This document shows, piece by piece, positions 391-16,658 of a stretch of 52,927 bases of DNA (the first letter of the stretch is position 1; every line of letters begins with the position of its first letter). A program made the translations under genes and the position numbers. Source of the stretch: an uncultured Opitutaceae bacterium (GTDB taxonomy: Bacteria > Verrucomicrobiota > Verrucomicrobiia > Opitutales > Opitutaceae). The notes under the pieces are model-generated. The model had not been told where the DNA came from. It ran no database searches and was given only the letters and a program-made list of their open reading frames with translations. Location of the stretch: assembly GCA_903862935.1 (NCBI GenBank), contig CAIOZY010000059.1, positions 1 through 52,927 on the forward strand, given 5' to 3'.

Positions 391-756
391 CTAGTTGCCG
401 ATCAACCGCTGCACCTCCGAAAGGATCTGGGTAAGCGGGGCCGTCTTATTGAGATAGGAGGCGACTTTCTTGCTGAGCACGTCCCGCACAACCTCGGGGT
501 CAAAGAAAACCCCGGTGAGCAACATGATGGGAATGTCCGGAAGCCTGAGTTTCAACTGCTCGACCATCTGCAGCCCGTCGGAATCCTCCAACTGCAGGTC
601 GGAGATGATCAGCTGCGGCGGGTCACTGATCACCGTCTTTTGGGCCTCTGCGGCAGAAGGGACGACCGTGGTCCGGTATCCTCGGTAGGCCAGGAACTCG
701 GCGAGCAGGTCGCGAATCTCGGCTTCGTCGTCGACGATTAAGATGTGCTTTTTCAT
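391..756 (-). CDS. Stand-alone response-regulator receiver domain (CheY-like)
   Basis: This 121-residue protein is a single receiver domain with no output domain. The acidic pocket is DD at 9-10, the phospho-acceptor is D53 in ISDLQLEDSD, the switch Thr is T81 in LLTG, and the conserved lysine is K104. The residue after that lysine is Thr, not the usual Pro (NKTAPL), a small departure from the family. It is the last gene of a leftward operon and lies 61 bases downstream of a Cache-HAMP-PAS sensor. Single-domain receivers usually act by protein-protein contact or as shuttles in phosphorelays, so the three co-operonic kinases are its likely partners (inference). Confidence 0.9.
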   Translation of the reverse strand: MKKHILIVDDEAEIRDLLAEFLAYRGYRTTVVPSAAEAQKTVISDPPQLIISDLQLEDSDGLQMVEQLKLRLPDIPIMLLTGVFFDPEVVRDVLSKKVASYLNKTAPLTQILSEVQRLIGN

Positions 757-817
757 AAAGTGGCGGTTGTGGTAAGTATATCGTGAAAATCAGCGGCAGA
801 TGGTAGGCGGACGAGCC

Positions 818-2443
818 TTAGGGTTGGAGAGATCGGAGAATGGCGACACCGCCTACAACCTTGTCCCTGTCGCGCAGCGGGAAGAGGGTAAGCCGGACGG
901 AAGCCGCCCCACCGCCCTTGATCTCGACGGTTGCAAACTGGTCACGCAAGTCGTGCCCCTCTTTAAGGGCCTGGGCCAAGGGGTTAGCCAGAACTGTGCC
1001 CCCCGTCCCCTCCTTGATGCGGACGAATCGGGATAGCGGCACATTGATCAGTTCCTCCTGTTCGAATCCGGTCAGGTGGATGACCGCCGGGTTGATCCGG
1101 GAGATGTTCAAGGCCTTGGTCAGGACGAAAACAGAATCACTAATCGAATTGATAATGAGCTGGTTATACCTGAGCTGGTGCTCCAGAGCCTGGTTCACCC
1201 AGGCCCGCTCCAGGTTCTCGATTGAGAGCTTCTCGTTTGCCGCCGCGAGGTTGGCGGCGTGCTCCTTGACCTTGAGCTCGAGTTCGCGGTTCTGCTTGAG
1301 AACGTCCCTCATCACCGTCATCGACCGGCTCAGCCGGCCGATCTCATCGTCCCGGCGAGGCGGCTTAATCGCGCAGTCGAGGTTGCCCCGGCCGATCTCG
1401 TCGGAAGCCTGCGTAAGCTCATTGAGGGGCTTGAGCGCAGTCCCCGTGGCAGCAAGCACGATCACCGCCAGGAGCGCCAGCGTCACCGCCAGTTCCAGGG
1501 TTGTGATCCAACGGAAGGCGCTGACTTGTTGCAGAAACTCGGACTCGGCATAGCCGACGACCACCCCCCAGCCTGCGATCTGGGCCGGTTTAAAGTTCTC
1601 GTGGACCCGCTTGTGGAGGAGCGGCGAGAGGTAAGACAGGGAGCCCTGGCGCTTGGCGAGCACCTTCTGGTAGATCGCCGCAAGTTCGGGGGCATTGGCC
1701 TTCTCCGCCAGGCCCTCCATCGTCTCCGACATGATGTAGGCCGGGTTCGGGTGCGCGATCAGCCGGCCCTCGCTCGAGAAGATGACGACGTAGCCGGTGT
1801 CGAAGAACTCGTTCTCACCGATCAGCTCCTTGATCCATGCCAGGTCGAATCCGGCAGCAACGACGCCCGCCAGTACCCGCTTTCCGTTCTCGGTCCTGTA
1901 GAAGGGGGCCGAGACCCGGACCACGTTCGTGTTCGATCCGCCTTTATCGAGGAAGGGCTCGCTCCAGACCAGGTCTCCCTTGCCCACGGCCGAACTGTAC
2001 CAATCGCGAGTCCAGTACCTGTAGTCGGTGGCGGCCAGGTCGCGCATCACGAGCCGGGTGCCGGAGCGGTAGGCGTAATGCCCGAAGCGCTCGACCTGCG
2101 GACCCATCGCGTACGGCTCGAATGAGATACTGCAGTCGGAGAAGTTTGCGCTGCCGGCGATCGCGTTTCGGATAATCCGATCGACGTCGTCGGGGCTGAG
2201 CGAGCGGTCCTCAAGGTCCCGGGCGAGGTAGCGGACTGTCGTCTCAACGGATCTCAGGACATCCTGAACCCCCTCCACAACCGCGATCGTCGCAGTCGCC
2301 GCCTGGACCTCCGCCTGCTGGAGTACCAGCCGCTCCACCGCCCGTCGCTTTAGCTCCGAGACGATCGGCACAGCGATAAAGCCCATCAGGAGGATGACCC
2401 CGGCCAAGCGGACCGGGAGCCTATTGAAGAATTTCACTTTCAT
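818..2443 (-). CDS. Membrane sensor protein: Cache (PDC) - HAMP - coiled coil - PAS, with no output domain
   Basis: This 541-residue protein has an N-terminal membrane helix (about 9-27), a periplasmic double-Cache-type region (about 30-310) with the typical YRYWTRDWY, WSEPFLD and AGVVAAGFDL segments, a second helix (about 313-335), HAMP (about 336-390, with PLNELTQASDEIGRG), a coiled coil and a C-terminal PAS (about 425-541). Such sensors normally end in a kinase, GGDEF, PP2C or chemotaxis domain. Here the protein stops right after the PAS. It starts 5 bases after the preceding gene and is followed by a lone receiver, so it belongs to the signalling operon. It probably signals through contact with another kinase of the operon (inference). 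A lost output domain is the alternative. Confidence 0.85.
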   Translation of the reverse strand: MKVKFFNRLPVRLAGVILLMGFIAVPIVSELKRRAVERLVLQQAEVQAATATIAVVEGVQDVLRSVETTVRYLARDLEDRSLSPDDVDRIIRNAIAGSANFSDCSISFEPYAMGPQVERFGHYAYRSGTRLVMRDLAATDYRYWTRDWYSSAVGKGDLVWSEPFLDKGGSNTNVVRVSAPFYRTENGKRVLAGVVAAGFDLAWIKELIGENEFFDTGYVVIFSSEGRLIAHPNPAYIMSETMEGLAEKANAPELAAIYQKVLAKRQGSLSYLSPLLHKRVHENFKPAQIAGWGVVVGYAESEFLQQVSAFRWITTLELAVTLALLAVIVLAATGTALKPLNELTQASDEIGRGNLDCAIKPPRRDDEIGRLSRSMTVMRDVLKQNRELELKVKEHAANLAAANEKLSIENLERAWVNQALEHQLRYNQLIINSISDSVFVLTKALNISRINPAVIHLTGFEQEELINVPLSRFVRIKEGTGGTVLANPLAQALKEGHDLRDQFATVEIKGGGAASVRLTLFPLRDRDKVVGGVAILRSLQP

Positions 2444-2448
2444 TGGGA

Positions 2449-3030
2449 TTAGAACTGGATTCTCAAAATGTCGACCGTGTTGGGGAACTGGGAAAGTTCA
2501 ACGAGTTGGCGGGTCGGCGGGTCGTAGACAAGCAGGCCGCGGTCCGTCTCCATCAAGACATAGGCGTCTACCTGACCGTCCCCACCCAGGTCCCCCCAGT
2601 CGTGCTGGCGCTTGCAGATCATAAGCCCGATTGGCATCGCCAGGGGCTTTCCGTGCTCCCGGACCGCGGCTAGCGAGGCCCCGACCTCGAGAAGCCGGGC
2701 AAAGACCGTCCCGTCGTAGGGCCCCTTCCGCGCAAGCGGGAGTTCGACCCCCACGGACCTGCATGCGGCCTCAAGCCATGCGGCAAGGACCGGCAGGCAG
2801 TCGCTTTTCAAGACGGCGTAGCTTGAGTCCAGGAACTCCACATCGTCCAGGCCCTGCACGCCGCTTTTTTGCAGCTCGTGAAGGAACTTCAGGAACCCGA
2901 TCTGCTTGGTTGCCCCGAAGTCGTCGGTGACAAGCTCGGGCATCGGAAACTGCGGCATGCGCAGCTCCTGCACAGAGGCGCTGGAGCCCAGGGCGAGAAA
3001 ACCGGAGGCGATCAGGATCAGGCGCCGCAT
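2449..3030 (-). CDS. Small exported protein, probable degenerate relative of the papain-like neighbour
   Basis: The product has 193 residues with an N-terminal signal-like segment (MRRLILIASGFLALGSSASV). Its C-terminal part aligns without gaps to the upstream neighbour over about 21 residues (GLLVYDPPT here, GLFVVEPQT there), which suggests a paralogue. At the positions of that neighbour's H181 and E196 this protein has D155 and D170, and no Cys sits in the equivalent FDCDKFA motif (DSSYA instead). It would therefore be a non-catalytic form if the alignment holds. The segment DLGGDGQVD at about 147-155 also resembles a calcium-binding FG-GAP or dockerin loop. It lies 6 bases after the papain-like gene and 5 before the Cache sensor, consistent with an extracytoplasmic partner of the sensors (inference). 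Confidence 0.6.
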   Translation of the reverse strand: MRRLILIASGFLALGSSASVQELRMPQFPMPELVTDDFGATKQIGFLKFLHELQKSGVQGLDDVEFLDSSYAVLKSDCLPVLAAWLEAACRSVGVELPLARKGPYDGTVFARLLEVGASLAAVREHGKPLAMPIGLMICKRQHDWGDLGGDGQVDAYVLMETDRGLLVYDPPTRQLVELSQFPNTVDILRIQF

Positions 3031-3036
3031 CCTGGA

Positions 3037-3696
3037 CTAGAGGTTCAACTCGGCCAGCCCGTCCCGGTTGGGATAGTCCCCGAGCGGCGTCATGGTTGCC
3101 GTTTGCGGCTCCACCACGAAGAGCCCCTGGCTCGTGTCCGCGATAACGACCGCGTGCCCGCCTCCGGCCTCGATTCCCCCAAAGGAGCGCTGGTTGTCGA
3201 CCACGGCCCATCCGACACACAGGGAACCCCCGCTTTCGCCTCCCCGCTGGGCGATCAGGCCGGCATAGGCGACGAAACAGCGGGCGAACTTGTCGCAATC
3301 GAAGAGTTCGTCCTCGAAGTGAAGGTTCAGGGAGGTGCCGAACTTGCGGAACCACCTCACATACGCCACCATCCATTCGTGGTCGGGCCGAACGAAGATC
3401 GAGGCCTGATGGATGATCTTCGGTGTCTTGGGCGTGATGGCCCGGAGTTCGGCGACGATATCGTCAACTGTGCAGGTGGGTTTTCCCGATCCGGCCGTCC
3501 AGGCGGGCGGCCGGGGAAGGACTGTGACGGGCAGCCGGGACAGCGCTGCGAGATCCGGCACGACCCTCTCGACCGGCTCGGCGACGACGGGCGCGGCGGC
3601 AGTGAACCCAAGGAGGACGGACAGCACCCCCACTGCCCTGCCCAGGGGCCGTTGCGACCGTGCGCTGAGGGCGAGGCAGGGCGGGGCTACACGCAT
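3037..3696 (-). CDS. Predicted exported papain-like (MOA C-terminal-like) protein
   Basis: The product has 219 residues with an N-terminal hydrophobic signal segment (about 18-39, ending in APVVAEP). The core reads FDCDKFARCFVAY (C134), GGGHAVVIAD (H181) and FVVEPQT (E196). This is the Cys...His...Glu layout of the papain-like domain found at the C-terminus of Marasmius oreades agglutinin and in small bacterial relatives; the family assignment is from memory. The gene overlaps the upstream REC-kinase gene by 10 bases, so it is translated with it. A secreted cysteine-hydrolase-like protein inside a kinase operon is unusual; it might process or sense an external ligand, but nothing in the sequence identifies a substrate. 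Confidence 0.6.
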   Translation of the reverse strand: MRVAPPCLALSARSQRPLGRAVGVLSVLLGFTAAAPVVAEPVERVVPDLAALSRLPVTVLPRPPAWTAGSGKPTCTVDDIVAELRAITPKTPKIIHQASIFVRPDHEWMVAYVRWFRKFGTSLNLHFEDELFDCDKFARCFVAYAGLIAQRGGESGGSLCVGWAVVDNQRSFGGIEAGGGHAVVIADTSQGLFVVEPQTATMTPLGDYPNRDGLAELNL

Positions 3697-4763
3697 GGCA
3701 AATCCAAAGCTACCGTCAGACCCCTTCCACCCCGGCCCGCCATCAGATCCAGGCGCCCGCCGCCGATCTCCGCGACCGCGCGGGCAATGGCGAGCCCGAT
3801 CCCCAGCCCCTGCTGCTCCCGGTGTTGCCGGCCGAACTGGGTGAACGGCCCCACGGTTTTCATCTGCTCGGCCGTCATGCCTTCCCCGCAGTCGGAAACC
3901 TCGATGCGGTAGGCTCCCCCCACCCGTCGGCCGCTGACGTCAACCGGCGAGCCCTTGGGCGAAAACCGCAGGGCATTCTCCACAAGTTCGGCGACGGCGT
4001 TCCCAAGGACATCCGCGGACAGGGCCACCCTGCCGGGCTCAACCTGAAGCCGAAGGTCGTCCTTGCGGTCTTCCTGTTCGGCGATCCGCGCAGACGCCAA
4101 CGCGATCGGCCCGTCCGCGGCGCATTCCCAAGCGGGCTGCTGGCGCGGCCCGCTCCGAATGCGCTCGAGTTCGAAGAATCGGATGAGCTTGTGCGACAGC
4201 CTCTGCTGCCGCTCGGCCCCGGAGCGGATCAGGCCGAGGAGCCCCTTCAACTCGGCGGGACTCACGCTCCCCCCATCCGCCTCGATGAGATCCAGACCGC
4301 CCATGACGGCCGTAAGCGGGGTCAACAGCTCGTGGGACCATTCGGCCGACATCTCACGACTGCGTTCCTGGAGCAGCTGCTCGATGCGCTCGCGAAGCGG
4401 CAGGTGCCTGCGGATGCGCGCCTCGATCGCGTCCATAATCTCCCTCTCCGTGAAGGGCTTTGTGACGTAGTCGTCCGCGCCGAGCTTCATCCCAAGGCGC
4501 TGGTCGTCCCGCGTGGCCCGGGCTGTCAGAAAAATGAACGGCAGATCCGCCCCGTCCCGTCTCTGCCGGATTGCGGTGATCACCTGGTAGCCGTCCATTC
4601 CGGGAAGGCCGATGTCGCAGAGGATTAGGTCAGGCTGCTTCGCGGCCAGCTCAAGCCCCTCCTCGCCGCTCGCGGCTGCGAGCACGGTGTGGCCGTTAAT
4701 CTCCAGCATCTGCCGGAGCACCTCGCGGATGTCTTCCTCGTCCTCGATGACAAGGATCTTCAT
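3687..4763 (-). CDS. Receiver-histidine kinase protein (REC-HisKA-HATPase), second of the pair
   Basis: This 358-residue cytosolic protein has an N-terminal receiver (about 1-118; D50 in LILCDIGLPG, K102 in TKPFT) followed by HisKA with H144 in the H-box SHELLTPL. The HATPase (about 235-355) has the N-box AVAELVENALRFS, G1 SDCGEGM and G2 QGLGIGLAIARAV. The receiver-first order lets an upstream kinase switch this kinase, as in chained relays. Its start overlaps the stop of the preceding REC-kinase gene by 4 bases and its end overlaps the papain-like gene by 10. No transmembrane segment or DNA-binding domain is present. All catalytic motifs look intact. Confidence 0.9.
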   Translation of the reverse strand: MKILVIEDEEDIREVLRQMLEINGHTVLAAASGEEGLELAAKQPDLILCDIGLPGMDGYQVITAIRQRRDGADLPFIFLTARATRDDQRLGMKLGADDYVTKPFTEREIMDAIEARIRRHLPLRERIEQLLQERSREMSAEWSHELLTPLTAVMGGLDLIEADGGSVSPAELKGLLGLIRSGAERQQRLSHKLIRFFELERIRSGPRQQPAWECAADGPIALASARIAEQEDRKDDLRLQVEPGRVALSADVLGNAVAELVENALRFSPKGSPVDVSGRRVGGAYRIEVSDCGEGMTAEQMKTVGPFTQFGRQHREQQGLGIGLAIARAVAEIGGGRLDLMAGRGGRGLTVALDLPCV

Positions 4764-5842
4764 GGCTGGGAGGCAGGGCCAGGCCCGGAGGGCAGTTCGA
4801 ACCAGAAGCGGGCCCCCTGGCCCGGCCGGCTCTCGACACCCACCTGACCATCGAGCTTCTCCACGATCCGCCGGACGATCGACAGGCCCAGGCCATGGCT
4901 GCCGCCCGCCCGCACGGTAGAAATCCGCGTAAAGGGCACAAACAGGGCGGCCTGCGCGGCAGCCCCCAGGCCCGGGCCGCGGTCCTGAACCCAGAAACGG
5001 ACCCTCCGGACGTCCGGACGGAGCTCGGCGCCCAGAGTGATCTCAGCCTTCGGCCCGGCGTATTTGGCGGCGTTGCTGATGTAGTTGGCCCAGACATGGG
5101 CCACCCAGGGGGCGTGGCCCAGCGCCACCGGCCAGTTCGGCTGCGAGTGGACGTTGGCCTCGGTCTTCTTGATCAGCTCCTCCAATCGCTCCAAAGCCTC
5201 CCCGACGACCTTTCCCATATCAAGCTCCCGAGATGTTATCGGCTGGCGGCGCACCCCGGCAAGAACGAGCAGGTCGTCGATGATGGACCCCAGGCGGGCC
5301 GCGGCCAGGGAGGCCTCCCTCACGTTCTTGCGCATCAGCGCCTCATCCGCCTTGCCCAGGGTCAGCTCCAGAAGCCCCAGCCGCCCGTTAAGCGTAGCGA
5401 GGGGATTCTTCAGGTCGTGGGCAACCGTGTGCGCAAAGGCATCAAGCTCGTCCATCAGCTCCTTCTTCTCAAGCCGGGTCCGGACCGAGCGGATCACCTC
5501 GTCCTCCGTGAAGGGCTTGGTGATGAAATCGTCGGCGCCCAGCTCCATGCCCCGCCGGGCCGCTGCCCGGTCCACCTTTGCCGTGATGACGATCACGGGG
5601 GTCCCGCGCAGGCCCTCGTCGCTCCGAAATTGCTGGAGCAACTCGAAACCGTTCAGCCCGGGCATCTCGATATCGGTGATGATGAGGCTCGGCAGCTCGC
5701 TTCGAGCTAGGGTGAGCCCCTCGGTCCCGGTGGGCGCCGAAACGGCCCGGTATCCGTTCATGTCGAGGATGTCGACCAGCGTGCGCCGCACGGGCTCGTC
5801 ATCCTCGATAACGAGGACGGTCGGTGTAGACAGTGTGATCAT
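4760..5842 (-). CDS. Receiver-histidine kinase protein (REC-HisKA-HATPase), first of the pair
   Basis: The product has 360 residues starting MITLSTPTVLVIEDDEP. The receiver has D57 (IITDIEMPG) and K109 (ITKPFT). The HisKA H-box is VAHDLKNPL with H142. The HATPase has N-box WANYISNAAKYA, G1 DRGPGLG and G2 GSHGLGLSIV. The ATG (5840-5842) overlaps the TGA (5839-5841) that ends the large upstream kinase once that gene's frameshift is corrected, the arrangement seen elsewhere in this operon. Read literally, the upstream frame runs on in register through this start and would fuse both proteins. The junction of about 140 residues is then not kinase-like, so a separate gene is the better reading. Confidence 0.85.
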   Translation of the reverse strand: MITLSTPTVLVIEDDEPVRRTLVDILDMNGYRAVSAPTGTEGLTLARSELPSLIITDIEMPGLNGFELLQQFRSDEGLRGTPVIVITAKVDRAAARRGMELGADDFITKPFTEDEVIRSVRTRLEKKELMDELDAFAHTVAHDLKNPLATLNGRLGLLELTLGKADEALMRKNVREASLAAARLGSIIDDLLVLAGVRRQPITSRELDMGKVVGEALERLEELIKKTEANVHSQPNWPVALGHAPWVAHVWANYISNAAKYAGPKAEITLGAELRPDVRRVRFWVQDRGPGLGAAAQAALFVPFTRISTVRAGGSHGLGLSIVRRIVEKLDGQVGVESRPGQGARFWFELPSGPGPASQP

Positions 5843-8800
5843 GGGGTGGCCCCGGGATCCCGGGGAAGATGCACGGTGAAGTGGCTGCCTCGATCCGGGG
5901 CCGAGCTGACTGCGACCGTTCCGCCGAGCAGTTCCGCCATGCGCTTGACGATGTTCAGGCCGAGCCCGGTGCCCTTGATGGTGCCAACGTTCGAACCCCG
6001 CTCGAACGGTTCGAAGATTCGGCTCTGATCCGCCTCGGGGATGCCGATGCCCTGGTCCTCCACGGAGATCACCGCCTCGCGCGCATCGACCGCAAGCCTC
6101 GTCGTGACGATGGACCCAGTGGGCGAATAGCGGGCTGCGTTGCTGAGGAGGTTGGAGAGGATGTGGTGCAGGATGCTCGTGTCGGTGGGGAAGCCCGACG
6201 CCGAACCCTCGCTCGTAAACACAAACCGGTGCGCGTCGCGGTCCCCCATCTGGATCTCTTCGATGACCCCCCCGCGTGTACTGTCTGAGGTCGATCGGAA
6301 GGACCTGTGCTTTGATCCGCCCCGCGTCGATGCGGCTCAGGGTCAGGATCTCGTCGAGCATGTCGGTCATGCGCCGCATCGAGAGGTTGATCCGCGTGAA
6401 GAGCTCCTCGCGCTTGCTCTGCGTCATCCGGTCCAGGTGGTTGCGCAACAACTCGACCGAGCCCATCGCGGCGGCCATCGGAGTCCGGAACTCATGGGAG
6501 GTGACCGAGATGAACCGGCTCTTCATCTCGGAGACCTGGCGTTCCTTCTCGAGCATCCCGGCCGCCTCGGTCTCGAGGCGTTTCCGGGCGGTGATGTCGC
6601 GCACGAAAACGACGAACTCTTCGGCCCCGATCGGGGAGGTGCGCACCTCGACCGCCAGCTGCCCCGTGTCCGAGGCGAGTGAGGCCTCGGCGGACACTGT
6701 CCTGCCTTCCGCGAGCGCCTGGGCCCCGCTCGCAAGGACGGTGGAGCGCAGCACCGAGCCCATCTGCGGGTTGGGCCCAAACTCTGCGGCAAAGGAGGAG
6801 TTTGCCAGCGGGGTCCCCCCTTTTGCTTCCTGAAAGCTGATGAGCGTTCCGTTCTGGCCGATGCGCATGACCAAGTCAGGGATCGAGTCCAACAGCGCCC
6901 GGATCTGGCGGTTTCCGGCCGCAAGTTCAGCAGTGCGCTCCGCCACCTTCTGCTCCAGCTCGGCGCTGAAGCGCCGCACGGCCGCGAAGGCCTCCCGCTC
7001 GCCAACACCGACCCCGATGGAGCGCGCGACGTTGTGGACAACCTCTCGCTCGCGGACGCTGAACGGTTCCCCGGGGGAACTCTCCTGCAATCGGACATAG
7101 CCCACGGTCAAATAGCCCGCGCTCCTTTCGTTGATGACAATCGGGGCGGATATCTGCGCCAGAAGCGGCAGCGCGGGCCCGCAGGTGATGCGGGCCCCGT
7201 CGATTTCCACGATCACGTGCGCATCCGACGGGCTCCCCATGGCGCCCGGAAGGCTGCTCGCGACGATCTCCAGGAGCTGGTCCGCACTGAGGTCGCGCCG
7301 CTCGAACGCCTGCGAGATCCGGTGCAGCTCCCTGAGCTGTTTGACGAGCTCGTTGAGCTCAATCTCCGCGAGCTTGCGCTCCGTCACATCCTGGACCGTG
7401 CCGACGGCGCGGACGGGCTCGCCCGACTGCGAGCGTACGACCTGGCAGCTGCCTTCGACATACCGGGTCTGTCCGCCCGGAAACACGAGGCGGTGCCCGA
7501 GAACAAATCCCTTGCCCGAAGCCAGGGCTCCCTCGAGGAGGCCACTCAGCCTATTCCGGTCCTCCGGGGGCATCAGGTCGGTGAAACCCTCCGCCGATGG
7601 GTGAGCTGTCGCCGGGTCTAGGCCCAGGAGCCGGAACATCCCGTCCGACCAAATCACCTCGCCCGTCTTCAGGTCCAACACCCAGTTGCCGAGCCTGGCA
7701 ATGTGCTCGGCGTCGGTCAGGCGATCACGGCTCTCCCGAAGGGCTTCCTCGGAGCGCCTGCGCTCGGTGATGTCGCGGCTGATCCCCAGGACCTGGGTCA
7801 TCTTCCCCGAGCTGTCGGCGAGCAGGGTGCTCACCACTTCGGTTGGAACCGAAGCCCCGTCGCTGCGAACCTGGTCGACTTGGTCGATACTGGTCCGGGC
7901 AGAGGGATCCCCGCCGGCAAGTCTGCCCAAGCGAACGGAGAGGGACTCCAGAGCCACTTCCGCAGACTGCGGCGTCAGCAGATCCACCATGCGCAGCCCG
8001 AGCATCTCGCTGGGCGAGCGCCCCAACAAAGTGACGACCGACGGGCTGCAGTAGGTGAACCTCTCTGAGGACAGGTCGTAGAGCCAGATCACGTCGGCCG
8101 TGTTATTCGCGATCAGCTGATAGCGCTCCTGGACCTCGGCCAGCGCAGACTCTGTCCGCTTGCGCTCTGTGACGTCCTCCTTGATCGCCACGTAATGGGT
8201 CGGCGTGCCGCTCTCATCGACGACCGGGGCAATGATGGCGCATTCAAAATACAGGTCGCCGTTCTTCTTCTTATTGCACAGCTCGCCACTCCAGACTTCC
8301 CCGCGAGCGAGCGTCTGCCACATCTCGACGTAGGTCGCCTGGGGGGTCGCTCCGGACTTCAAGACCCGCGGGTTCTGCCCCTGGACCTCCTCCCGGGAAT
8401 AGCCGGTCGTCGCAAGGAAGGCGGGGTTAACGTATTCGATCGCCCCGGACAGGTTCGTGATCACGATCGACAACGGGGCCTGGTCGACGGTGCGGGACAG
8501 TTTGCGCAGCTGGGCCTCGGCACGCCGCCTCTGGCTTATGTCGCGGGTGATTCCCAGGACCTGCATCACCCTGCCCTCGGGGTTCTGCATCAGCGTGATG
8601 ACCACCTCGGCTGGCAGCATGGCCCCATCCTTGGTCAGCAATTCCAGTTCGTAGGTCTGGGTGCGCGCCGCCTCGTCCCCGGCTTCAAACGCGGCCACCC
8701 GCTCGAGAACATCCTTCAGGACCGACTCGCGCACCTCGGGTGGCAGGGAGTCGGCTATAGGCCGGCCCACCAGTTCCTCGGGGCTGAACCCCCGCACGCG

Positions 8801-11800
8801 GCGCACCGCGGGACTCATGTAGGTGAAACACCGGGTTTTCAGGTCCCCGAGCCAGATGATGTCCGCGCTGTTCTCGGCCATGAGCCGGTACAGCTCCTCG
8901 CTCCGCCGCAGCGCCGCCTCGGTGCGCTTGCGGTCCGTGATATCGACCTTGAGAGCGGCGTAGTGGGTCGGCTTGCCCTGCGCGTCAGTAATCGGGGTCA
9001 CAACGGCGTACTCGGTGAAGTGCGCGCCACTTTTCGTCTGGTTGATGAGCTCCCCCCGCCAGGGCTTCCCCTTCGCCAGAGTGTCCCACATCTCGCGGAA
9101 GGTCTCCGGCGGGGTGAGGCCGGACTTGAGGAGCCGGGGATTCTTCCCCAGGACCTCCTCCAGGGCGTACCCGGTAACTTCGGTGAAATAGGGGTTTACG
9201 TACTCGATTGCCCCGGACAGATCCGTGATCACGACCGAGCTGGGGCTTTGGTCGAGGGCGGACGAGAGTATGCGCAGCTGGCTTTCGGCCTGCTTAATCT
9301 CCGTGATATCCGACCAGACGGCGCTGATATAATCGATACCCCTCAGGCGGAGCGGACGGATGCTGACCCTCACGTCGCGCGGGCTGCCATCCCGGGTCTT
9401 GTGGCGGCTTTCGAACGAAATGCCGCCTGTTTCGATAGCAGATTCGATATGCCGCCGGATCTGGCCGGTGTCGTGGTCATTCTGGAAGTCCTCCACCTTT
9501 AGGGATGCGAACTCCTCCCGCGTGTACCCCAGCCCCTCGTGGGCCGATCGGTTGAATTCCACGATGCGGCCCGTCCCAATCTCCACCAAGGCGATCGAAT
9601 CCATGGCCTGGGCGACGATGATCGAGAAGATCTCCTCGCGCGCCCGGAGCTCCTCCTCGGAGCGCTTCCTTTCGGTGATGTCGAACCAGCTGCCCACAAG
9701 CTCCAGGGGCTCCCCCTGGGAATTACATACAAGCGTCGTCTCGTCGCGCATCCAGCGCCAGCTTCCGTCCGCGTGACGGAAGCGGTATTCGCGCCTGATA
9801 ATCCCGCCCGCCTTGAGTTCGCGCGCGGCGCCGTCCGCCGCAGCAATATCCTCGGGGTGCACGTGGGCGTGCCAGAAGCTCGGATCCTCCACGAAGGACT
9901 TGGCCTGGTGGCCGAGGACCGCGCGCACATTCTGGCTGATGAACGTCGTCCTGAAGTCCCCGCTGGGCTGAACGGAGTAGACTACGACCGGGGCCGCCGT
10001 CAGCAGGAACTGCATGCGGCCCTCGCTTGCCTTCAGGGCATCGTCGGCCCGCCTCTTGCGAGCCTCCGCCTCGAAGGCATCGAGCGCAAAGGAGATGTCC
10101 CCGGCGGTCTCCTCCAGGAGCGCAACCTTCCGCGGACGAAAGAACCCGACCTCGGCGGCGTAGACGGTGAGCAGACCCACCTTTTCCCCCTGGCACTGAA
10201 GCGGCACGGCGATCGACGAGTGGAACCCGGCCTTGGCCGCCTGCTCGCGCCACGGCGCGGTGTGGGGGTCCGAGAAGAAGTCGTTGCAGACATGGCTCCG
10301 TCCTTCGCGGAAGGCCGTGCCGCTCGGTCCCTGCCCCTCCGGTACGTCGGCATCCGTCGAAATGCGGATCCTCGCGACGTAACCATAGGTGTCCCCGGCA
10401 ACCGCCACGGGTTCGACCCACCGGGTCTTCGGATCCACCACGCCTATCCAGGCCATCGTGAATCGCCCGTCATCAACCAGAACCCGGCAGACGCTCGCAA
10501 ACAGCTCCTCCCGGCTCTTGGCGCGCACCAGCACCTGGTTCACATGGCTGATCACGAAAAACATGCGGGTCAGCCGCTCGATCTCGAGATCCTGGGCCTT
10601 GCGCTCGGTGACGTCGCGCGTAATCGCCAGCAGGTACTTGGAGCCGTCGATCTCGACCGGCCGGGCGCTCACTTCCACCGGGAATACGGCTCCGTCCCGG
10701 CGCCGGTGGTTAGTCTCGAAGACGGCGCCTTCGCTGGGATAGTCCGCAATCGAGCTGTGTTCCCCCTGTCCCTTTCGCTCGTCCCCGCGGAGGTCATAAA
10801 TCGTCAGGCGCCGCATCTCCAAGGGGTCTCTCCCGTACAGTGCCAACGCCCGGTCATTGGCATCGACGATCCTCATCTCGCTGTCGAAGAGCAAGATGGC
10901 GTCGTTTGCGTTCCTCATGACAACCGCGAGCCGTTCGACCGCCGCGCGGCGCTGGCGCTCGGTTTCCTCGTGCAACTGCTCGTAGGTCCGCTGACGCGCC
11001 CGCCAATACCCGGCGACGAGAAGCGCTACGACAACAAACCCCAGCAGAACGAACGCGCTCAGTTTGCGGGCCTCGGAGCGCACGGTCTCGTAGGCCTCAG
11101 CCCGGTCCATCTTTGCGATGAGGAACCAGGGTGTTCGATCGACAGCCCGCGACACGAACACGACCGGTACTCCCCGGTAATCAACGCCCTCCCCGAGTTC
11201 CGTCCCGTGCCCGGCCACCGCTGCAGCGGCGGGAAGGTTCGAGTGGAAGATCGGTAGCCGCAGATCAAGCGGAGCGCCCGGGCGGAATCGAAGCTCGCTT
11301 AGAATAGTAACCGAGTCGCCGTCGCGGCGCACGAGCATCAGTTCCGCCGATGCGCTCGTCTCCGGCCAGCGCTGGATCATGGGAAGAAGATCCCTTCGGG
11401 GGTCGACACGCAGCAAGACCGCCCCGGCAAAGGATCCGTCCGAGGACCTAACCGGCGCCAGAAACTCTATGCAGAGGCCCCCTCTGGGTTCCCGGTGCAG
11501 ATCCTTGACCGCGACGTCCCCGGCCAGCGCAATGTTGGCGAGATCCTTCTGCTCCCATCCCTCGAGAGCCCCAGCGCTCGCAGGGGATGCAAACAGCGGC
11601 GCGAAGTTGCGGTCCAGAAGGATCACGTCTTCGTAGCCGTAGGCCTTGCGATACTCCAAGAAGTACCGGGTCAGGGCCTCCTGCGTCCGGCTGGTGGCGG
11701 TGCCTGCGGAAAGGGTCTCGATAACTTTTACAAAAAATGGAGCGAGGGCCAGCGTGTGGGCGTCTCCGAGGCGCTCCGCGCGCCAGGCCTCCACCTGGCT

Positions 11801-12622
11801 TTCCTTCAGCATGCAGACTGCGGTTAGGCTGTCGTGCAGCGCCCGTTTCGCCTGCGCAAGTTGCCGCGCCAGGTAGGCGTATCCTGACCAAGTCAGGGCC
11901 AGGGAAAGACCGGTTAGGGCGAGGGCGATCTGCCACCGGCCCCGCCGCCGGAACATACGCGGCTCGTCGCCTTCGGAGACCACCCCTTCAGACCGGATCT
12001 GGGCCACGCGCTGGGCGCCAAAGGCCAGGGCGAAGGCAACGCTCAGGACAGCGAAAGCCGCCGTTCTCCACAGCCGGGGTCCGGCAAGAGAATCCGCGGA
12101 CAACAAAGGAACGCCGGCCAGCCTCCCCGTCAGATCGACGCAATGGGCAACAGCCAGGGCCCCGCCCAGGGTCAACCCAGCCCTAAGCCACCATCGGTGC
12201 AGGGCATTCCGACGGGCGAGGATCAGGAGCAGCCCCGCCATAATTAGGAGCGACCCCGCCGTGGTCGGCCCCATCTGGACCCATTGGGACCAAGAGACCT
12301 GGACCGAGGCAACACTCGCAACCCAGGAGGCAAGGCCGATAGCGGCAACCAGGACTGCGGCAACGATCGCCGCAGAGCGGGCGGCCTTCGATTCTTCCCA
12401 CAAATACATCAGCCCGAGCGGGATTCCGATCAACAGGATGGATAAGGCCGTTGGAGGAAGACCCGGGATTGTCCCCCACCGGGCCGTCAGGAGCCCTATC
12501 CCCATCAGGCGCTGCACCCCAGGGACGAGCGCAAGGCCCACTCCGGCCAGCGCCGTAAGGAAAATGACCCGTCTAATTCCGAGGCCCAGGCCGTGGGCGC
12601 TCTTAGATAAAAGGATCTTCAC
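5839..12622 (-). CDS. Giant membrane histidine kinase with nine PAS and two GAF domains; frameshift at a 7-G run
   Basis: The start is a GTG at 12622. An N-terminal multi-helix membrane block (about 1-215), a helix near 235-250, an extracytoplasmic sensor-like region (about 253-525) and a helix (about 527-546) precede the cytosolic part. That holds PAS1 (from about 563), GAF1 (688), PAS2-PAS8 (from about 870, 996, 1116, 1243, 1373, 1498, 1636), GAF2 (1755), PAS9 (1906) and HisKA with H-box SHEFRTPM (about 2043). The HATPase (N-box NLLSNAARYS, G1 DQGIGIPE, G2 GTGLGLNIV) lies in another frame. Removing one G from the run at 6267-6273 joins them into about 2260 residues ending at 5839. It is the first gene of the signalling operon. 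A sequencing indel, a real mutation or programmed slippage could all explain the shift. Confidence 0.85.
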
Positions 12623-15563: not shown

Positions 15564-16658
15564 CTAGGCAGCTGCGCCGGGCCCGGGGCCCCGGCGATTC
15601 TCGAAGAGATAGTGCGAGACCATCCACTCCGCGCCGCCCGAGAAGCCGAAGAGTTCGGCGCAGGCCATGAAGAAGACCCTCCAGCGAACGAGCCACCGCA
15701 GCTCCTCGCCGGGGCCGTACACCTCCGAGAAAAGAGCCCGGACCCTGCCCCGGTTCAGGTCGAGCCTCGCCAGCCAGGCCTCCGCCGTCTTCTGGTAGTG
15801 GGTTCCGGAAAGCCTCCAGTGACCGCGGAGGGCGAAGTCGTCCTGGAAGCGCAGCAGCAGGTCGTCGCTCGGCATCAGGCCCCCGGTGAAGAAGTGCTGC
15901 GCCATCCAGTCCGAGGCCCCGCGCACCTCGAAGGGGTAGGCGTAGCGGCTGTGGGCGAAAACGTGGACGAAAAGGAGCGCCCCGGGGCGGGACCACCCGC
16001 CGATGCGGCGCATCAGCTCCGCGTAGTTTCGCATGTGCTCGAACATCTCCACGGAGACAACGCGGTCGAACCGCCGGCCTGTGTCGAAGTCGTTCATGTC
16101 GGCCGTGACGACCTCAAGGTTCTGGAGGCCGCGCTGGGCGGCCTCCCGGTCGATGTGCTCCTTCTGGGAGCGGGAATTGGATACGGCCAGGATCCGGCTC
16201 GAAGGAAACCGCGCCGCCAAGTGCAGGGAAAGGGACCCCCACCCGCAACCCAGCTCCAGGATGTCCTGGCCGTCACCCAGGCGCGCCCGGCGGCAGGTCA
16301 GGTCGAGCATCGCCTCCTCGGCCCGCCCGAGGTCGGAGGTGCCGTCTGCCCACAGGGCGCAGCTGTACTTCAGGTTCGGGCCCAGGACCAGCCGGTAGAA
16401 CTCCGCGGGAACCTCGTAGTGCTGGGCGTTTGCCGCGTCGGTGTGCAGCGCGACCGGGCTTGAACGAAGCCCCGCGACAAGATCGGCCAGACGCTCCGCC
16501 GGCCCCTCGGGCCAGCCCCTGCCCTCCTGCTCAAGACGCTGCGCGAGCAGCTGCCGGATGCCCAGGCGGATCAGCCGGTCCGGGACAAGGTCCCGCTCAA
16601 GCCACCGCACGTAGCGGGCCTCCGTAACGGGCGAGTCGGGGGAGAGGGGCTTTGCCAT
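15564..16658 (-). CDS. SAM-dependent methyltransferase, cyclopropane-synthase / coclaurine N-methyltransferase-like
   Basis: This 364-residue cytosolic enzyme carries the SAM motif ILELGCGWGSLSLHLA (about 127-142) and the family blocks YEVPAEFYRLVLGPNLKYSC, VSVEMFEHM and FFTGGLMPS. The last, together with LFVHVFAH, resembles the branch containing plant coclaurine N-methyltransferase more than E. coli Cfa. The substrate is therefore uncertain: an unsaturated acyl chain or an amine. It begins 3 bases after the DUF1295 gene in an operon led by the MerR/B12 regulator. A second, different member of the superfamily lies in the divergent operon at 20526. Confidence 0.85.
   Translation of the reverse strand: MAKPLSPDSPVTEARYVRWLERDLVPDRLIRLGIRQLLAQRLEQEGRGWPEGPAERLADLVAGLRSSPVALHTDAANAQHYEVPAEFYRLVLGPNLKYSCALWADGTSDLGRAEEAMLDLTCRRARLGDGQDILELGCGWGSLSLHLAARFPSSRILAVSNSRSQKEHIDREAAQRGLQNLEVVTADMNDFDTGRRFDRVVSVEMFEHMRNYAELMRRIGGWSRPGALLFVHVFAHSRYAYPFEVRGASDWMAQHFFTGGLMPSDDLLLRFQDDFALRGHWRLSGTHYQKTAEAWLARLDLNRGRVRALFSEVYGPGEELRWLVRWRVFFMACAELFGFSGGAEWMVSHYLFENRRGPGPGAAA

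Follow-up and report, generated by a model that had tools for sequence, protein, structure and literature searches.

As far as the available text of the two reports goes, LapD of Pseudomonas controls the periplasmic protease LapG, which has a transglutaminase-like fold, through its HAMP domain (PMC4359373), and DvhD of Desulfovibrio, which has a dCache domain in the periplasm and a PAS domain in the cytoplasm, controls the papain-fold (BTLCP) protease DvhG via cyclic di-GMP (c-di-GMP) (PMC13090378). Here we describe a seven-gene operon of an uncultured Opitutaceae bacterium, located on a contig of 52,927 bases (C59, in an assembly of 62 contigs and 3.35 Mb) that was analysed as a whole and is called the window. 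The operon encodes a giant membrane histidine kinase, two further histidine kinases that begin with a receiver (HK-B and HK-C), a papain-like protein with a hydrophobic leader (P4) and its degenerate paralogue (P3), a dCache-HAMP-PAS membrane protein without a kinase domain (the sensor) and a lone receiver (REC). Judged by sequence comparison, it consists of two modules, namely K (giant PAS kinase, HK-B and HK-C) and S (P4, P3, sensor and lone receiver).

By analogy with the Lap and Dvh systems we propose inside-out control, for and against which the chances seem evenly balanced: the phosphorylated receiver would switch the membrane protein, which would hold or free the exported enzyme. Module K would be a three-kinase phosphorelay without DNA-binding output and module S its effector. 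Once phosphorylated, the lone receiver would dock on the kinase-less membrane protein at its PAS end; the change would travel via HAMP across the membrane, and the dCache domain would then hold or free the exported P4. P4 would act on a surface or envelope protein, and its dead twin P3 might serve as a decoy, chaperone or adaptor. The phosphorylated receiver would stand in the place that c-di-GMP has in LapD/LapG and DvhD/DvhG. With PAS as its last domain, the membrane protein is unable to phosphorylate a receiver, and the lone receiver, having no output domain, must act by contact. Inside-out control is preferred because the c-di-GMP domain of the Dvh and Lap systems, replaced by a receiver, would give the cassette seen here. 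The proposal builds on gene content, domains, conservation and linkage, on catalytic residues that P4 retains and P3 lacks, on receivers with intact sites and on a further class of cassettes that follow the same plan with other parts, all observed directly; export (from hydropathy), the contacts, the direction of signalling, and the protease activity and substrate of P4 are what we infer.

The sensor is encoded beside P4 and a lone receiver

The window sensor matched dCache, HAMP and PAS in Pfam and gave no kinase, GGDEF, EAL or HD-GYP match. In the window and in its relatives alike, the protein ends after PAS. The output-less sensor and the lone receiver that a previous reading of the DNA (the sequence-only reading) had recognised were therefore borne out by the Pfam domains. 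Kinase-less dCache-HAMP-PAS sensors were found at 13 loci in 12 of 252 genomes of the family. All 13 adjoin P4 (two of these P4 genes are cut by contig ends) and all 13 adjoin a lone receiver (one cut by a contig end), and P3 is present at 11, the contig stopping within P4 at the other two. Gene order and orientation of module S vary across loci and its membership is constant; the counts omit L032, which shares a contig with L018, as well as L052-L057. At the genome level, sensor and P4 were associated with a hypergeometric p of 5e-11, or 6e-17 when set against the 17 genomes with P4 matches below 1e-50. The adjacency at all sensor loci argues for the exported pair as sensor partners, a role that the sequence-only reading had suggested. 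It had also stated that lack of a conserved neighbourhood in relatives would refute it. This check turned out only partly in its favour: the P4-P3-sensor-receiver module is kept, but the kinase trio is separate from it, and the seven genes have not evolved as a single unit. Since it is conserved in relatives, the gene set is not due to chance.

The genome of the window contains a second copy of module S on contig C28, adjoined by another PAS kinase. The window sensor also carries Y-x4-R-x-W-Y ... D, which we take to be an amino-acid-binding dCache pattern; several of its positions vary among relatives, and amino-acid sensing by this domain is not claimed.

P4 keeps its catalytic residues and P3 has lost them

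P4 and P3 of the window are paralogues according to BLASTP (E 1e-07, 29% identity over 80 amino acids), and neither matches any family above the cut-off. In 40 P4-type proteins, Cys and His were each found 40 times, Glu 37 times (two others have Asp and one a gap) and the Gln that follows 39 times (one gap). The 22 P3-type proteins have all lost the Cys and all carry Asp at the Glu site, and the His is kept in five. These counts include L052-L057 from a viral collection, of which L054, L056 and L057 repeat others. The ratio of nonsynonymous to synonymous substitution rates (dN/dS) was 0.17-0.23 for P3 (four close pairs of relatives, the window not among them) and 0.06-0.15 for P4 (eight pairs). 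From its sequence, P3 is a dead paralogue kept under purifying selection.

Hydropathy averaged over 19 residues revealed one stretch above the threshold in P4, two in the sensor and none in P3; averaged over 12 residues, an N-terminal hydrophobic stretch appeared in P3 too. A leader upstream of the domain was present in 24 of 30 P4, 15 of 15 P3 and 33 of 40 transglutaminase-like proteins (described below), compared with 0 of 49 control receivers, when the open frame was followed upstream beyond the starts set by the gene caller. With the gene caller's own start codons leaders were fewer (15/27 P4, 14/19 P3 and 18/34 transglutaminase-like proteins). Hydropathy hence predicts that P4 and P3 are exported, and together with the paralogy and the residues it agrees with the exported papain-like protein and degenerate partner of the sequence-only reading. 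P4 occurs in 40 of 252 family genomes (E 1e-8), and a class-wide search of 286 genomes found relatives in seven, all inside the same family.

According to the accessible text of two reports, the papain-like domain of the Marasmius oreades agglutinin (MOA) has a Cys-His-Glu set with a Gln two residues past the Glu (PMC8244254, PMC4764322). The same arrangement was found in P4. At the Pfam gathering score, the window P4 did not match Agglutinin_C (PF18021); among 10 P4 relatives one match was obtained, to L053 of the viral collection, at 19.7 bits against a cut-off of 26.8. A search of the Protein Data Bank (PDB) with a family profile (A6) returned MOA and its homologue PSL among four matches (E 0.6-0.9), with an unrelated chain first (0.19). 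In this weak match, DCDxFA and EPQNG of the P4 family align with 2iho (MOA). Neither P4 by itself nor alignment A3 yielded anything useful when searched against PDB sequences. With a poor P4 model (pLDDT 45), Foldseek placed MOA first (E 0.37), and the VIA Z was 2.2-2.7 for MOA and PSL, transglutaminase (3.1) and DsbC (3.0) scoring higher; for the P3 structure model nothing convincing was found. Several signs, each weak alone, suggest that P4 is kin to the MOA papain-like domain, and the label "MOA-C-like" given in the sequence-only reading fits the protein.

Another P4-related family was observed at L021, L029 and L030 (in G054, G032 and G027, respectively) as a single leader-bearing protein followed by a protein of 81-142 amino acids. 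Six contigs of the viral collection (L052-L057, several of them copies) carry distant P4 relatives with Cys, His and Glu intact, one of which had no match among GenBank phages.

P4-P3 pairs are also found away from the sensor. In G126 (L041 9361-17311) the pair lies in a tight run with proteins of 1535 and 694 amino acids with adhesin-like repeats; SdrD_B was matched there above the cut-off and Big_1 and Invasin_D3 below it. In G101 (L047), the pair faces HlyD-like and outer-membrane efflux genes in convergent orientation. These neighbours would suit surface proteins as P4 substrates. At five other sensor-less P4-P3 loci, nothing adhesin- or secretion-like was detected among the one to four neighbours searched at each (none was searched at L024).

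A parallel class carries CHASE3 and transglutaminase-like proteins

In G010, which belongs to the same genus, and in G207, genes for a transglutaminase-like protein, a kinase-less CHASE3-PAS protein and a lone receiver adjoin HK-B. The linker-PAS end of these CHASE3-type proteins is homologous to that of the window sensor. With a linker-PAS profile, 70 places were detected in the family, spread over 67 of its 252 genomes and 21 of its 49 genera; outside the family, the profile found one genome among 288 of the phylum. From 71 PAS-module places 55 were read, 16 not having been fetched; 13 are of the dCache type, and 41 of the 42 others, all but L103, have a recognisable CHASE3. A papain-fold gene adjoins 53 of the 55 loci, namely P4 in 13 and a transglutaminase-like gene in 40. 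The two loci without one are L083, at a contig start, and L097, which is rearranged. A receiver gene adjoins 54 of 55 loci by position, the exception (L105) being a contig end, and a length-limited REC profile gave 47/55; the receiver is a lone one at 41 of the 42 non-dCache loci. The receiver sites are intact (Asp in 54, Thr in 53 and Lys in 52 of 54, the remainder gaps). In the 40 transglutaminase-like proteins, Cys was found in 39 and His and Asp in 40, the aligned stretch of L117 starting past the Cys. In a Pfam scan of six of these proteins, five pass the cut-off of a transglutaminase-like family and L085 fails; the others were assigned by similarity to two of the six. The CHASE3 class is closely packed, with median gaps of 19 bases (n=33) and 15 bases (n=35) when starts are taken from our own gene caller, which uses the codon usage of the window. 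The gene caller failed in six low-GC loci; of these, L103, L109 and L117 were read with a six-frame profile search, and L026, L027 and L051 for P4/P3 only. The genome of the window itself contains on contig C40 (L078 6338-9541) a transglutaminase-like protein, a CHASE3-PAS protein, a lone receiver and a REC-kinase in one run.

As far as sequence comparison reveals, two outer domains (dCache and CHASE3) and two papain-fold families are built on one plan. We tentatively regard these loci, with slightly less than an even chance of being right, as a family-wide class of cassettes in which a receiver-driven, kinase-less PAS switch would control an exported papain-fold enzyme, the outer domain and the enzyme being swapped and the plan kept. 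The matches to transglutaminase-like families would also suit envelope-modifying enzymes that act on capsule or peptidoglycan, with the membrane protein and receiver reporting the envelope state and no sequestration taking place. HvyA of Caulobacter, in the part of its report that was available, is a transglutaminase homologue that prevents capsulation (PMC4241560). This explanation seems improbable to us, as it accounts neither for the selected dead paralogue P3 nor for the constant association with a membrane protein that lacks a kinase.

The kinase trio and its linkage to the cassettes

The giant membrane histidine kinase of the sequence-only reading stood as regards its domains, but not as an intact frame. 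Pfam recognised a PAS array, GAF and HisKA, with HATPase in another frame (5839-6249). The mechanical open reading frame (ORF) 4760-12622 reads as a single protein of 2620 amino acids in which the giant kinase is fused with HK-B, because of a frameshift at a run of seven G (6267-6273) between HisKA and HATPase. A programmed frameshift was considered and is unsupported, as most relatives read through; the region is also broken in L066 and L075, at other sequences. The second sensor copy on C28 (L019 about 16261-16267) was likewise frameshifted at a run of seven G. Both breaks may stem from sequencing error, slippage (phase variation) or decay.

According to tree and alignments, HK-B and HK-C each constitute an orthologous group, and HK-B is present in 44 of 252 family genomes (E 1e-80). 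Gene order was read in 19 HK-B neighbourhoods, fetched out of 54 places listed. In 13 of them the order is PAS kinase, HK-B, HK-C (in L058 and L063 the contig stops inside HK-C), and in six HK-C is lacking. As in a two-component phosphorelay, HisKA, HATPase and REC domains are present and their phospho-sites are conserved. The operon has three HisKA-HATPase proteins and three receivers, one each in HK-B and HK-C and one that stands alone, and among the Pfam matches of its seven proteins there is no DNA-binding domain. This agrees with the three His-boxes and three receivers counted earlier, and the domain content is consistent with the relay without DNA-binding output that was deduced from them.

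Both HK-B and HK-C lie beside P4 in the window, L036 and L039, HK-B only in L022 and L037, and HK-C only in L038; in G265, contig ends (L058 with L034) point to the kinases next to P4. P4 was found in 0 of the 19 fetched HK-B neighbourhoods, and modules K and S are mostly apart, often on different contigs or strands. A clade of the six HK-B proteins taken as P4-linked was rejected (p-AU 0.0003; the tree is poorly resolved, with one well-supported branch, and its bootstrap unsettled). The linkage therefore arose or was lost more than once. One ancestral seven-gene operon was rejected on this ground and because orientations differ. The separation of the modules and the lack of a clade would also fit a kinase trio and a module S that are neighbours without joint function. 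This seems very unlikely, given that HK-B or HK-C adjoins P4 at six loci, and at a seventh via contig ends, and that genes overlap in the window and genomes show co-occurrence: the PAS module is present in 30 of 44 HK-B genomes versus 67 of 252 overall (p 1e-10), and HK-B in 9 of 12 sensor genomes (p 1e-5).

HK-B or HK-C was seen in 6 of 55 PAS-module loci, many of which are cut by contig ends. A HisKA/HATPase gene lies at most four genes away in 11 of 37 CHASE3-type loci, and none was seen at this distance in the other 26. Most cassettes are thus without an adjoining kinase, as would be expected for an effector cassette. The main rival of inside-out control is signalling in the opposite direction, in which the exported papain-fold protein, together with P3, produces, binds or presents a ligand of dCache or CHASE3, the membrane protein steers one of the REC-kinases or the giant kinase via PAS contacts, and the lone receiver is an output that touches a partner such as a motor or another enzyme. 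dCache and CHASE3 are classical input domains, some loci have kinases beside the module and HK-B co-occurs with it, all of which would suit such signalling. We nevertheless regard it as rather unlikely, given the 26 CHASE3-type cassettes without a kinase within four genes and a presumed amino-acid-binding pattern that is not kept in relatives of the window.

Several observations weigh against inside-out control. As a rule, CHASE3 and dCache sense ligands, a role that fits outside-in signalling equally well; 11 of 37 CHASE3-type cassettes are near some kinase, and on C40 of the same genome a kinase lies directly behind the receiver. The association p values are too small, as genomes and genera share ancestry. 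The structure models are poor (pLDDT 43-45). P4 and the six scanned transglutaminase-like proteins stay below the LapG cut-off, and a search of 8 genomes yielded no PF06035. Adhesin or secretion neighbours occur at only two of eight sensor-less P4-P3 loci, and no such gene was identified adjoining module S, the flanks of which were not searched systematically.

Gene arrangement in the window

ORF and domain analysis placed seven leftward genes at 391-12622 on the (-) strand (Table 1), and the coordinates agree with the overlaps and gaps of the run as first read, including the 61 bases before the last gene. The giant kinase and HK-B overlap by four bases (ATGA), HK-B and HK-C by four and HK-C and P4 by ten. 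Gaps of 6, 5 and 61 bases separate P4 from P3, P3 from the sensor and the sensor from the receiver, respectively. Gene calling favoured alternative starts for P4 (3633) and the giant kinase (12409), and called no gene at 1-390, the contig end past the lone receiver.

Table 1. Features of the seven-gene operon and their positions in the window.
Feature	Position	Strand	Basis
Giant membrane histidine kinase: N-terminal membrane/extracytoplasmic part, PAS array, GAF, HisKA, HATPase; frame break at run of seven G	5839..12622	-	Pfam, ORFs
HK-B: REC-HisKA-HATPase	4760..5842	-	Pfam; orthologue group (tree, alignment)
HK-C: REC-HisKA-HATPase	3687..4763	-	Pfam; orthologue group (tree, alignment)
P4: papain-like, hydrophobic leader, Cys134-His181-Glu196-Gln198	3037..3696	-	BLASTP, alignment, hydropathy
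P3: degenerate P4 paralogue (Cys to Gly, His to Asp, Glu to Asp)	2449..3030	-	BLASTP, alignment
Sensor, kinase-less: transmembrane (TM) - dCache - TM - HAMP - PAS	818..2443	-	Pfam, hydropathy
Sensor C-terminal linker-PAS module (ERxW ... HQLxYNxLI ... PAS), common with CHASE3-type proteins	821..1246	-	
Lone receiver (REC only), phosphorylation site intact	391..756	-	Pfam

Comparison with known systems

If inside-out control is true, control of surface proteolysis would not be tied to c-di-GMP and could be driven by two-component phosphorylation, and the cassette would supply an output for kinases and lone receivers that otherwise have none. The MOA-like papain domain, known from fungal chimerolectins, would be placed in bacterial signalling. 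The cassette is directly testable with small soluble proteins.

A literature search, with subscription journals mostly outside its coverage, brought up no description of this combination nor of a receiver-driven system of such kind, in line with the claim of the sequence-only reading that no system of this make-up was known. Ordinary hybrid phosphorelays likewise distribute HisKA, HATPase and REC over several proteins; unlike them, the window has three kinases, no DNA-binding output and, within one run with the kinases, genes for exported proteins. P4 shares with MOA the Cys-His-Glu and Gln pattern as well as DCDxFA and EPQNG (2iho), in weak matches (E 0.6-0.9), and differs from it in being small, bacterial and leader-bearing, with no lectin domain matched in Pfam. 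HvyA, as the available part of its report has it, is a cell-surface transglutaminase homologue, like the exported transglutaminase-like proteins of the CHASE3 cassettes.

The closest architecture, in what the accessible text on it describes, is that of DvhD/DvhG, a membrane switch with dCache outside and PAS inside that is paired with an exported papain-fold protein, as the window sensor is. DvhD, however, ends in HD-GYP and reads c-di-GMP, whereas in the window sensor PAS is the last domain and a lone receiver is encoded next to it; DvhG is a BTLCP protease, whereas P4 is MOA-C-like and outside PF06035. LapD/LapG, within the same limits of the source, has in common with the proposed cassette the inside-out control of an exported protease via a HAMP membrane protein. 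LapD is HAMP-GGDEF-EAL, whereas the window sensor is without GGDEF and EAL. P4 gave no match to Peptidase_C93 (PF06035, the LapG family), and two of the six transglutaminase-like proteins match it at 20.5 and 21.7 bits, with the cut-off at 27. By these family tests, the operon is neither a Lap system (PF06035 below cut-off, no GGDEF-EAL) nor a Dvh system (no HD-GYP). If the proposed direction of control holds, it would nonetheless work like both, and it has the look of a counterpart, driven by phosphorylation, to the systems with which other bacteria time the cleavage of their surface proteins.

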